NCBI GenBank assembly: GCA_947454485.1
Contig: CANGJJ010000007.1
Span: forward strand, 86,386-150,385
Length of the DNA stretch: 64,000 nt
Direction of reading: 5' to 3'
DNA from: Beijerinckiaceae bacterium
GTDB taxonomy: Bacteria; Pseudomonadota; Alphaproteobacteria; Rhizobiales; Beijerinckiaceae
Below, piece by piece: positions 33,147 to 37,942 of the stretch. Numbering within the stretch: position 1 is the stretch's first letter; the number at the start of each line of letters is the position of its first letter. Position numbers and translations under genes: made by a program. The notes under the pieces were generated by a model. That model was not told the origin of the DNA, ran no database searches, and saw only the letters and a list, made by a program, of their open reading frames with translations.

Positions 33147-35297
33147 ATGCATCTCAAACAGATCTTTTTGTCTGGCATCGCCAGCATTGCTCTGGCCGCC
33201 AGCATGGCGGTGGGGACACAGTCTGCGCAGGCACAGCAGCCGCAGCAGCAGCGCGTTGCAATTGATGCCGACGATATTGGCGGCGTGGTGCGCGGAACCA
33301 AAGGGCCGGAGGCTGGCGTTTGGGTCATTGCCGAGACCACCGATCTGCCAACCAAATTCACCAAGATTGTCGTGACCGATGATCAGGGCCGCTATGTCAT
33401 CCCCGATCTGCCAAGCGCCAATTATCAAGTCTGGGTGCGTGGCTATGGCTTGGTGGATTCCCCCAAACTGCGTGGCAAGCCCGGACAGATGATCAATCAC
33501 ACCGCTGTTGCTGCGCCCAATGAGGCTGCGGCCGCGCATTATTATCCGGCGATCCATTGGTACACGATGATGAAGATCCCGCCAGCTTCAGCTTTCGGCG
33601 GCAAATCTGACATACCTGAAGGCATCACCCGCGATGCCTGGCTGAAGCAGATGAACAATGTCGATTGCATCGGCTGTCATCAGCTCGGCCAAGAATCGAC
33701 GCGCACCATCCCTGCGCAGTTCGGCACTTTTGAAAATGGCGAACAGGCCTGGATGCGTCGCCTGCAGTCTGGTCAGGCTGGCGAGATGATGACCAATCGC
33801 ATCGCAGGTCAATTTGGCGGGGCGCCTTATAAATATTTTGGCGATTGGACGGACCGTATCGCCAAAGGCGAATTGCCCAAGACCAAACCAACACGCCCGC
33901 AAGGCCTCGAGCGCAATGTTGTCGTCAGCGCATGGGAATGGTCGAGCCCTGACAAATATCTGCACGATCTCATTGCATCTGATCGGCGCTACCCAACCGT
34001 GAATGCCTATGGCCCGCTCTATGGCGCGCCGGAATATTCCACCGACCAGATGCCCGTGCTTGATCCCAAGACGGCCACTGCGACCACTTACAAACTGCCC
34101 GTGCAAGATCCCACCATGCCTGTATCTCTGGGGCCGGGTCATGCAGGCAGTGTGAAACCCATGGCCGCCTCTGCTTATTGGGGCGATGCAGTTTTGTGGG
34201 ATACACGCGCCAATAATCACAACTCGATGTTCGGCAAAGACGGCAAGCTGTGGCTCTCGGCCTCTGTGCGCGGCATGGCCAATCCCGACTATTGCAAAGC
34301 GGGGTCTGATCATCCTTCAGCCAAAGTCGTGACCCTCGACACCTCTGCGCGTCAGGCTGCGATGTATGATCCCAAGACGCAGAAATATGCGTTCATCAAT
34401 ACCTGCTTTGCCACGCATCATCCCCAGTTTGGTTATGATGCCGATGATACTTTGTGGTTCTCTGGTACAGGCACTGTGGCGGGCTGGGTGAACACAAAGA
34501 AGTTTCTCGAGACGGGCGATGATGTCGCCTCGCAAGGCTGGGCGCCTTTCGTGCTCGACACCAATGGCAATGGCAAACTCGATCCATTCAGCGAGATCGG
34601 CAAGCCCGCTGAGAGCGACAAAGACATGCGCATTGGCGGCGGTAATCCCTATGCCGTCATGCCCCATCCCAATGACGGATCGGTTTGGTATGCGGTGGGT
34701 GTCTTTGCCAAAGATGCAGGCTTCCTGCGCTTTGATCCCAAGACGGGCCTGTCGGAAGTTTACTACATGCCTAAGCCTGGCAACGGTATTCGCGGCGGCG
34801 ATATCGACAAGAATGGCGTCTTGTGGGGATCAGGCTCCAGCGGTCATCTGGTGAGCTTTGATCGACGCAAATGCAAAGCGCCGCTGAATGGCCCCAAAGC
34901 CACTGGCTATCATTGCCCTGAAGGCTGGTCCTTCTATCGCTATCCCGGCCCCGGCTTTGAAGGCGAGGCCAATAGCGCTGAGGCGAGCTATTACACTTGG
35001 GTCGATCAGCACAATACTCTGGGCCTTGGCGAAGACGTCCCCGTCTCGACCGCCAATCTTCAGGACGGCTTCGTCGCCTTCAAGGATGGCAAGATGGTGC
35101 TGCTGCGCATCCCCTATCCGATGGGCTTCTATGCCAAGGGTCTCGATGGTCGCATCGACGACCCCAAGGCCGGCTGGAAGGGTCGCGGACTGTGGAGTTC
35201 GAGCGGCGACCGCACACCTTGGTTGATGGAAGGTGGCAAGGGTTCTCGCCCCCGCGCGGTGCAAATTCAGGTCCGCCCAGACCCTCTCGCAAAATAG
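33147..35297 (+). CDS. Secreted protein with carboxypeptidase-regulatory-like N-domain, one CXXCH and propeller-like C-region
   Basis: Signal peptide to SAQAQQ; GGVVRGTKGPEAGVWVIAETTDL...YVIPDLPSANYQVWVRGYGL; NVDCIGCHQLGQ; repeated DGSVWY/GKLWL/DTLWFSG-type strands. Confidence 0.75.
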   Translation: MHLKQIFLSGIASIALAASMAVGTQSAQAQQPQQQRVAIDADDIGGVVRGTKGPEAGVWVIAETTDLPTKFTKIVVTDDQGRYVIPDLPSANYQVWVRGYGLVDSPKLRGKPGQMINHTAVAAPNEAAAAHYYPAIHWYTMMKIPPASAFGGKSDIPEGITRDAWLKQMNNVDCIGCHQLGQESTRTIPAQFGTFENGEQAWMRRLQSGQAGEMMTNRIAGQFGGAPYKYFGDWTDRIAKGELPKTKPTRPQGLERNVVVSAWEWSSPDKYLHDLIASDRRYPTVNAYGPLYGAPEYSTDQMPVLDPKTATATTYKLPVQDPTMPVSLGPGHAGSVKPMAASAYWGDAVLWDTRANNHNSMFGKDGKLWLSASVRGMANPDYCKAGSDHPSAKVVTLDTSARQAAMYDPKTQKYAFINTCFATHHPQFGYDADDTLWFSGTGTVAGWVNTKKFLETGDDVASQGWAPFVLDTNGNGKLDPFSEIGKPAESDKDMRIGGGNPYAVMPHPNDGSVWYAVGVFAKDAGFLRFDPKTGLSEVYYMPKPGNGIRGGDIDKNGVLWGSGSSGHLVSFDRRKCKAPLNGPKATGYHCPEGWSFYRYPGPGFEGEANSAEASYYTWVDQHNTLGLGEDVPVSTANLQDGFVAFKDGKMVLLRIPYPMGFYAKGLDGRIDDPKAGWKGRGLWSSSGDRTPWLMEGGKGSRPRAVQIQVRPDPLAK

Positions 35298-35442: not shown

Positions 35443-36288
35443 ATGGCACATCCATTGTTAGTTGAGTTCGGGGACAGCCCCCCAGAAAGCTGGGACAGCG
35501 CGCGCCGCGCCGCTGCCAGCGATAAGCTATTTGCGGCCATTGCAGCTGATCGCGCCGGAACGCCGGGCGCAAAACTACAGGCTGCCGACCGCACCAAAAT
35601 GCTGCGTATCTGGCTCGACATTCGGATCTTGGAAAAGAAAGCCGAAGAGAGCGAAGCTGCCGGTGAGCCCGAGGCTACCCTCGCGCCCAAGCCCGTCGCC
35701 CGCACAAACAAGAAGGCGGAGCGAAAAAAAATCACCCTCCCCCGTCCGCAATTCAAGCGCCTGCGCGCTCTGCTGGGCATGCTGCGCAGCCTGACCATTC
35801 CCGATTATCTCTTCTTGAGCATCCTGTCTGGCCTGACGGTCGCGGTGATCTGGCTTGGCCTTCATTCGGTCGCCGAGGTCCAGCGCATAGAGAGCGTCAA
35901 AGGGGAAGCCGAGGCCCTTGTCGCATGGCTGAAAGAAACCGGAGAGAGCCGCACGAATGGCTCTTTTGAGCCTGCTGCCTGCCGCAAACAGGACGGCAGC
36001 AATTGGAATGACTGTGCGGCTGCCTTGAACGCCGAGGGCGGCCCCCTGTTTGAGCGGGTCAATCATTTCGAACCCAAGCATCCCTTGCTTCAGCGCAAAT
36101 GTGACCCAGCCAATTGGGTGACTATCGGCTCGATCATTCTCGAAAAGGGCACGCTGCAGCCCACCGGCAGCTATGCCTATGCGCCCTTCGATGGCACAGA
36201 GCTGATGAGCAAAGACTTTGTGATGCGTGTCACGGTCTGCGGACGCGGATTCCACCTGATCAAGGTGGCCTCCGAGTTGAATTTGTGA
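35443..36288 (+). CDS. Hypothetical single-TM protein with Cys-containing C-terminal domain
   Basis: 281 aa; basic segment then TM (YLFLSILSGLTVAVIWLGL); four Cys in the C-terminal part; ends 4 nt before the channel gene. Confidence 0.75.
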   Translation: MAHPLLVEFGDSPPESWDSARRAAASDKLFAAIAADRAGTPGAKLQAADRTKMLRIWLDIRILEKKAEESEAAGEPEATLAPKPVARTNKKAERKKITLPRPQFKRLRALLGMLRSLTIPDYLFLSILSGLTVAVIWLGLHSVAEVQRIESVKGEAEALVAWLKETGESRTNGSFEPAACRKQDGSNWNDCAAALNAEGGPLFERVNHFEPKHPLLQRKCDPANWVTIGSIILEKGTLQPTGSYAYAPFDGTELMSKDFVMRVTVCGRGFHLIKVASELNL

Positions 36289-36292
36289 GGCG

Positions 36293-37942
36293 GTGATGGA
36301 CAATATCGACCAGACCGCTCCGACCAGCGAGACCGCGCCCAAGCCTGTGGTGCGCACCAAACTCTGGCGCAGCTCCTTCCGCAACACGCTCTATCATTGG
36401 CTCTTTGATCCGCATGGCCGTCATAGCTATGCGCAGATCGTGGAACAATGGATCGCGGTGCTCATCATCGCCAATATCGCGATCATGCTCTTTGAGCTGA
36501 TACCCTCGATTTATGAGCCGAACAAAAAGTGGTTCCACGTCTTCGACATCTTTTCCATCATCGTCTTTACGATGGAATATTTGTTGCGCCTGTATGTGGC
36601 GCCCGAAGATCCTGAATTTGCCAAGAGCCGTTTCCCGCGCCTCAAATATGCCTTCAGCATCTTCGCGCTGATTGATCTGGCAGCTATCCTGCCTTTCTAT
36701 CTGAGCGCCTTTATCAGCATGGATCTGCGCGTTTTGCGCGTCTTGCGCTTGTTGCGCTTGCTGAAGCTGTTCCGCGTGGTCGTGCCCGCTATTCAGGAGT
36801 TTTTGGTTCTCAACAAGGGGCGTACCTTCCGACAAAAAATCCATGCGCTCATTTTCCCCTCAGAATATGGGGGCACGCTGCATCATTATTACGACCTCTT
36901 CATCGTGTTCTGGGTGCTGTTGTCGGTGCTGGCGGTCGTGCTGGAATCGGTGGAGTCGATTTACTACAATCTGGCAGTCGAATTTGTTGTGCTCGACACG
37001 CTCGCCGTTCTCGTCTTTTGCTTTGAATATAGTATGCGGCTCTATTCCTGCGTGGAGGAGCCTGCCTTCAAACATTGGCTGGGCGGCCGCTTCCGATATG
37101 CGCGCCAGCCTGTGGCAATGATCGATATTCTGGCCATCCTTCCCTTCTTCCTCGAAGTGTTGCTGCATCATCTGGTCGATCTGCGCTTCTTGCGAACCTT
37201 CCGCCTGCTGCGCTTGTTCAAGCTGACGCGCTACACCGGCTCGACAACCGCGCTTGTCAGCGTGATCAAACGCGAAATGCCCGTGATTGGCGCGGCGGCT
37301 TTCACCATGATGCTGCTGGTCATTCTGGCGGCGAGCTTTGGCTATCTTTTCGAACATGAGGCGCAGCCCGATAAATTCGAAAATATCCCAACCGCGATCT
37401 ATTGGGCGGTGATTACGCTGGCGAGCGTTGGCTATGGCGATATTTCACCCATCACGCCGATGGGCCGATTTATGACGGTGATCATGGCGCTGCTGGGTAT
37501 CGGCATTTTCGCCATTCCTGCCTCCATCCTCTCCTCGGCCTTCATGGAACAGCTGCAGTCACAGCGCCAAGAGATCGAGAACCAGCTCTCTGCCATGTTG
37601 GACGATGGCGTCTTGTCTGAAGCTGAGATGGAAGAGGTCCGCGTTCTGGCCAAGCGCCTCAATATGAGCGACCATCAGCTCAATATTTTGATCGAGAAGG
37701 CCAAACTCGCCCAATCAGAACGGGCCAAGCAGAATCTGTTCATGCCCGCGGATTTTCTGAGCGAACATCCAGAAATCGCTGCCGCGCAATTCCATATTCT
37801 GGCAGAGCAGATCAAGCGACTAGCCAATCTCGACAATGAAAAAGAGATCGGCGCGATTATCAGCCGCTCGGATCAGCTGGATGATGTGCAAAAACGGCTC
37901 TGGACGGATTTGAAAACCAAGCCTGACCCTAAGCCAGAATGA
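36293..37942 (+). CDS. Voltage-gated K+ channel-like protein with two tandem voltage-sensor domains and one pore
   Basis: S4-like DLRVLRVLRLLRLLKLFR and DLRFLRTFRLLRLFKLTR; single selectivity filter TLASVGYGD; GTG at 36293 or ATG at 36296. Confidence 0.9.
   Translation: MMDNIDQTAPTSETAPKPVVRTKLWRSSFRNTLYHWLFDPHGRHSYAQIVEQWIAVLIIANIAIMLFELIPSIYEPNKKWFHVFDIFSIIVFTMEYLLRLYVAPEDPEFAKSRFPRLKYAFSIFALIDLAAILPFYLSAFISMDLRVLRVLRLLRLLKLFRVVVPAIQEFLVLNKGRTFRQKIHALIFPSEYGGTLHHYYDLFIVFWVLLSVLAVVLESVESIYYNLAVEFVVLDTLAVLVFCFEYSMRLYSCVEEPAFKHWLGGRFRYARQPVAMIDILAILPFFLEVLLHHLVDLRFLRTFRLLRLFKLTRYTGSTTALVSVIKREMPVIGAAAFTMMLLVILAASFGYLFEHEAQPDKFENIPTAIYWAVITLASVGYGDISPITPMGRFMTVIMALLGIGIFAIPASILSSAFMEQLQSQRQEIENQLSAMLDDGVLSEAEMEEVRVLAKRLNMSDHQLNILIEKAKLAQSERAKQNLFMPADFLSEHPEIAAAQFHILAEQIKRLANLDNEKEIGAIISRSDQLDDVQKRLWTDLKTKPDPKPE

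Follow-up and report, generated by a model that had tools for sequence, protein, structure and literature searches.

A K+ channel with two tandem voltage sensors and a single pore is almost always encoded beside a membrane protein that had no name, a hint of a possible new type of voltage-sensing complex in freshwater bacteria

The ability of a voltage-sensor domain (VSD) to respond to voltage involves the charges of its S4 segment and the S2/S3 transfer centre, and in the pore a GYGD filter indicates K+. In the prokaryotic Kv channels with six transmembrane segments (6TM), as in the wider Kv family (Kv4, KCNQ), each pore domain has one VSD. Two-pore channels (TPC, 2 x 6TM) carry two VSDs per polypeptide, with a pore in each repeat, and Hv1 and the voltage-sensitive phosphatase possess a VSD without a pore of its own. 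Some Kv channels are accompanied by single-pass auxiliary subunits (Kv4-DPP6/DPP10, KCNQ1-KCNE), of which DPP6 attaches to the Kv4 sensor at S1-S2 (PMC8566240, PMC10950684).

The window analysed here is a stretch of 64,000 nucleotides from a Beijerinckiaceae bacterium (contig CANGJJ010000007.1). It contains an ORF of 549 aa at 36293-37942 on the + strand, with a GTG start at 36293 and an equally good ATG start three bases on, at 36296. The encoded subunit consists of a first VSD (VSD1), a second VSD (VSD2), a single K+ pore with the filter TLASVGYGD and a cytoplasmic helical tail. A sequence-only reading had proposed two consecutive full voltage sensors and one pore in one subunit, and this was confirmed by Pfam, by AlphaFold2 and by conservation across 56 proteins. 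The helices and the filter that it quoted are all present in the translation, and neither Pfam nor AlphaFold2 places a pore between VSD1 and VSD2, in agreement with its claim that only the second block is followed by one. It was silent on a partner gene located 4 bases upstream of the channel gene. The features of the locus are as follows.

35443..36288, + strand: partner gene, 281 aa, directly upstream of the channel gene
36293..37942, + strand: tandem-VSD K+ channel gene, 549 aa (548 aa with ATG 36296)
36425..36784, + strand: VSD1, residues 45-164, with invariant or near-invariant residues in 56 homologues and pLDDT ~86-97; key residues S1 E68, S2 F92/E95/R99, S3 D128, S4 R146-R149-R152-R155-K158-R161; mean pairwise identity 57%
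36785..36880, + strand: linker from S4 of VSD1 to the pre-S1 helix of VSD2, residues 165-196; mean pairwise identity 60%
36881..37240, + strand: VSD2, residues 197-316, with conserved residues in 56 homologues; key residues E218, F242/E245/R249, D278, S4 R298-R301-R304-R307-K310-R313; mean pairwise identity 63%
37241..37552, + strand: S4-S5 linker, S5, pore helix, filter and S6, residues 317-420 (Ion_trans_2); mean pairwise identity 77%
37553..37939, + strand: cytoplasmic helical tail, residues 421-549, TerB-like in some members; mean pairwise identity 37%

Pfam recognizes Ion_trans in two stretches of the channel protein, plus Ion_trans_2. In a search of the window's own genome, block 1 matched positions 2-112 of the Ion_trans model (57.8 bits), which is the sensor part only, and block 2 matched positions 1-238 (111 bits), the whole 6TM unit. 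Aligned with each other over 96 aa, the blocks share 44% identity (E 6e-20), and block 1 on its own matched solved sensors in the PDB, from Kv4, KCNQ2 and a bacterial Nav channel (4bgn). An AlphaFold2 monomer model, for which the window and locus sequences were aligned in 56 rows, has a mean pLDDT of 82.8 (∼86-97 per ten-residue block in VSD1), and its helices fit S1-S4 in both blocks. Block 1 is thus predicted to be a four-helix VSD; a different topology would have refuted the sequence-only reading. The pore region of the model is weaker (pLDDT 53-70), as could be expected for the monomer of a putative tetrameric pore. The best Foldseek matches of the model are Kv4, KCNQ and Kv1 channels, and no 10-TM channel is among the matches listed.

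In the alignment of 56 tandem-VSD proteins, the S1 acid, the F/E/R of S2, the D of S3 and the basic residues of S4 are invariant in both VSDs, the only exceptions being a gap at R155 in two proteins and an R-to-K change at R313 in three. The pore is the most conserved segment and its filter (residues 375-383) is nearly fixed. The linker between the VSDs has the consensus PAxxEFxxLNxGRTFRQKxHALVFPSxYGG, with P165, A166, N174, R180, A185 and G194 invariant. The tail evolves fast; TerB (PF05099) was matched in 12 of the 56 members (best E 1.6e-4) at a position that fits the tail, and a weak DjlA match covers residues 425-480. Because the tandem-VSD pattern is conserved across these 56 proteins, a chance origin can be excluded.

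The order VSD1-VSD2-pore-tail was found at 91 loci, window included. A search across Alphaproteobacteria had been proposed for this architecture; it does recur, but mostly in Betaproteobacteria. Seventy-four of the loci are labelled as Betaproteobacteria (Limnohabitans, Polynucleobacter and other Burkholderiales), ten as the window's own genus and two as Beijerinckiaceae bins, the rest being unlabelled or doubtful. By name alone, many records point to lakes and ponds. The genome surveys were confined to Pseudomonadota. In an even sample of this phylum, the full tandem protein is present in two of 399 genomes, the window's and one other, and among 398 genomes from the order of that second genome three hold the full form and a fourth only a form without VSD1. 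The tandem-VSD channel is rare overall and recurrent in certain groups. An assembly or frameshift artefact was rejected, the architecture being identical at 91 loci in many assemblies. Triple or quadruple VSDs were also rejected, the tblastn spans of ∼2000-2300 bp corresponding to separate adjacent 6TM channel genes. Bins labelled Thermoflexus hugenholtzii (L092) and Bordetella parapertussis (L095) contain tandem channels that resemble those of Betaproteobacteria, and are probably mislabelled or misbinned metagenome contigs. A previous characterization of the architecture would also have counted against the sequence-only reading; nothing relevant on tandem or double VSD channels was found in the open-access literature, most subscription papers and preprints not being covered, and within that scope the architecture is undescribed.

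In a tree of 130 VSDs, all VSD1s of tandem proteins, including those of the divergent tandems L157 and L158, form one branch (99/100), and a second branch holds the VSD2s (95/94 when the divergent pair is left out). This makes a single origin of the tandem architecture likely, and it would be the simplest reading. VSD1 and VSD2 group together only weakly (81/79), so that an internal duplication as the source of VSD1 is favoured by the sequences but not shown. A fusion with the adjacent 6TM channels of unusual filter described below was rejected, since the VSDs of those channels make up a separate branch (98/93) among single-VSD channels, away from VSD1. Paralogues without VSD1 exist in genomes G439, G768, G676 and G824. 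The one from G439 (L160, 7544-8761) has only VSD2, pore and tail, and retains the linker; together with L172 (946-2160) and L173 (1444-2631), it starts at the conserved VSD1-VSD2 linker. Because the divergent tandems branch outside L160, with only moderate support (91/68), L160 has probably lost VSD1. The divergent tandems themselves (L157, 6762-8330; L158, 5924-7570; L169, 4884-6359) have neither an adjacent partner nor a recognizable tail. A divergent tandem of Gemmobacter aquarius, a freshwater isolate, is plasmid-borne and annotated merely as 'ion transporter'; it has lost some basic residues from both S4 segments.

With the end of the partner gene at 36288 and the channel start at 36293 or 36296, we infer that the two are probably translated together. 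The partner protein has a basic N-terminal segment, one predicted transmembrane segment (122-140), a long helix and a small beta domain with conserved cysteines C180, C191, C220 and C266. No variation occurs at W188, C191, C220 or G229, and hardly any at C180 and C266. From its charge and cysteines, the N-terminus would be cytoplasmic and the four-cysteine domain periplasmic. The structure model is confident (pLDDT 90.6), and no PDB fold matched it (Foldseek, E<=0.001). No Pfam family matches the protein encoded in the window, and an hmmsearch of the PDB gave no matches. A pilin-like fold, suggested by the long helix and the beta sheet, was not supported by Foldseek.

The partner lies directly upstream of the tandem gene at 84 of the 91 loci. 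Of the other seven loci, four lie on contigs that begin with the tandem gene, two offer <800 bp of sequence ahead of it, and the last (L091) comes from a genome that encodes the partner elsewhere. Among 61 relatives, the partner is present in exactly the 12 with a tandem channel (in G006, the channel occurs in fragments only). It was also detected in both tandem genomes of the phylum sample, in addition to a weak match in G417 (E 7e-6), in all 18 of the further genomes behind tandem loci that were examined, and in G439, G768 and G648. It was not found in G676, which holds only a VSD1-less channel (one genome, 91% complete). No partner adjoins the second copies L159 and L071 (6908-8122) or the three divergent tandems, and in G005, G018 and G032 it adjoins another channel copy. 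In the surveyed genomes, the presence of the partner tracks the VSD1-bearing channel almost exactly. A distance correlation (mirrortree) of the partner with the channel domains did not single out VSD1 as the partner contact.

Just upstream of the partner, the window encodes a 716-aa protein (33147-35297) whose match to a carboxypeptidase-regulatory-like domain is weak and under the cut-off, and which has a CxxCH motif (CIGCH) of haem-binding type; it was not found beside the tandem gene elsewhere. Downstream of the tandem gene, 13 Burkholderiales-type loci (L035, L043-L046, L048, L057, L059, L071, L073, L096, L099, L105) have one or two short 6TM channels bearing the filters TITSGYGN and TI(I/V)SGWGN. 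These are often paired, have an intact S4 and are co-oriented with the tandem gene (e.g. L044, 6638-8463). A similar pair (TISTGYGN, TIVGGWGN) occurs in G704 and G758 without a detected tandem (related pairs without a tandem gene: L175, L176), and the pair can therefore be considered a separate module. Another group of 6TM channels, with the filter LTTTGYGD (L071, 5581-6660; L096, 8519-9607; L163, 4576-5772; L164, 5389-6675), is found in some tandem-holding genomes, sometimes beside the tandem on the opposite strand.

We consider it fairly probable that the protein is the pore subunit of a voltage-gated K+ channel with a 4TM+6TM layout, probably a tetramer that would hold eight VSDs. In this view the pore is driven by VSD2, gating is tuned by VSD1 as an additional sensor, and the partner is an auxiliary subunit. 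K+ selectivity and voltage gating are inferred from the filter and S4. Four subunits would form a homotetramer around one K+ pore. VSD2 would act as the canonical sensor, coupled to the pore via its own S4-S5 linker, and VSD1 as a second working sensor placed outside VSD2, a position that is assumed in the absence of a multimer model. As S4 of VSD1 leads through the conserved linker into the pre-S1 helix of VSD2, movement of VSD1 could bias VSD2 and change the voltage range, steepness or kinetics of gating. The upstream single-pass protein would probably serve the VSD1-bearing form as an auxiliary subunit, with its site of action or sensing in the periplasm, although its binding to the channel is likewise inferred. 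A likely physiological role, also an inference, would be the control of K+ flux and membrane potential.

The main alternative concerns VSD1. It might be mainly a docking or assembly module for the partner or a neighbouring channel, its voltage response being irrelevant to gating. The tracking of VSD1-bearing channels by the partner fits this proposal, and the conserved partner gene lends indirect support to the extra VSD as a docking site, a use that had been entertained from the sequence. Moreover, no partner adjoins the VSD1-less L160 or occurs in the examined stretches around L172 and L173, and eukaryotic single-pass auxiliary subunits bind VSDs directly, as DPP6 does on Kv4. However, the divergent tandems retain VSD1 without a nearby partner gene, and keeping all gating charges and countercharges of VSD1 exceeds the need of docking, which leaves this explanation unlikely to our mind. 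VSD1 as a working sensor is favoured because a mere anchor would be expected to lose its gating charges, yet they are kept.

The same charges bear on the idea that VSD1 is itself an ion pathway, carrying an Hv-like proton or leak current beside the K+ pore. In Hv channels, as well as in Kv VSDs that are truncated or mutated, protons or cations can pass through the sensor domain (PMC12332018), and VSD1 has the invariant S1 acid E68. However, this acid is equally invariant in VSD2 (E218) and the charge patterns are alike, so that nothing sets VSD1 apart as Hv-like; among solved structures it matched Kv4, KCNQ2 and a bacterial Nav channel, and not Hv. We hold such a current to be very improbable. 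It is also hard to believe that VSD1 is no more than a passive leftover of duplication, without a specific role, in an otherwise ordinary Kv channel. The linker-keeping paralogues of G439, G768, G676 and G824 indicate that VSD1 can be lost, but VSD1 and its charges are retained at 91 loci against few losses, mostly in second copies.

The channel offers a natural, conserved case for asking if a voltage sensor can act on a pore by way of another one, and what purpose additional sensors serve. These questions are normally addressed with engineered channels. Full tandems, linker-keeping VSD1-less paralogues, partner-less divergent tandems and 6TM relatives provide built-in controls, and the existence of homologues from named strains (Limnohabitans sp. 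T6-20 and 2KL-17, Polynucleobacter hallstattensis MWH-Hall10) makes the second-sensor question testable. The conserved single-pass partner would be a candidate bacterial Kv auxiliary subunit. A more far-reaching proposal, which we advance only tentatively, is that of an undescribed prokaryotic K+ channel complex, the bacterial form of an alpha-beta Kv complex. In it, a second, non-pore-coupled ring of VSDs in an eight-sensor tetramer would provide a voltage input of its own, and a dedicated auxiliary subunit, single-pass, periplasmic and with a new fold, would hold this ring.

Compared with known systems, the channel shares with prokaryotic 6TM Kv channels and the wider Kv family the VSD-pore unit, the GYGD filter and the S4 RxxR repeats, and its best PDB sequence and fold matches are KCNQ4 and Kv4. 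It has the sequence features of the voltage-gated K+ channel family (VIC superfamily), namely an S4 basic repeat with S2/S3 countercharges, here in both VSDs, and a pore made of S5, pore helix, K+ filter and S6; the tetramer and the K+-selective voltage-gated current that also mark this family are inferred. It departs from the usual, though not obligatory, ratio of one VSD per pore domain, and is in this respect a variant architecture, with a conserved VSD1-VSD2 linker and a partner gene in addition. Two VSDs per polypeptide are also found in TPC; however, block 1 runs straight into VSD2 without S5-pore-S6, which does not meet the definition of TPC. VSD1 lacks its own pore like the VSD of Hv1 or the voltage-sensitive phosphatase, but its chain goes on into another VSD and a K+ pore, whereas an Hv proton channel has no pore domain in the protein. 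Like the subunits of Kv4-DPP6/DPP10 and KCNQ1-KCNE, the partner is predicted to be single-pass, and its predicted orientation is that of DPP6, with a cytosolic N-terminus and an extracytoplasmic C-terminal domain (PMC8566240, PMC10950684). No sequence or fold homology to DPP6/KCNE-like subunits was detected (Pfam, Foldseek at E<=0.001, PDB hmmsearch), and the likeness in topology is one of analogy. The auxiliary role proposed for the partner rests on gene pairing and co-occurrence and not on demonstrated binding. As far as the open-access literature allows this to be judged, we are dealing with a Kv variant accompanied by a possibly new family of putative auxiliary subunits.
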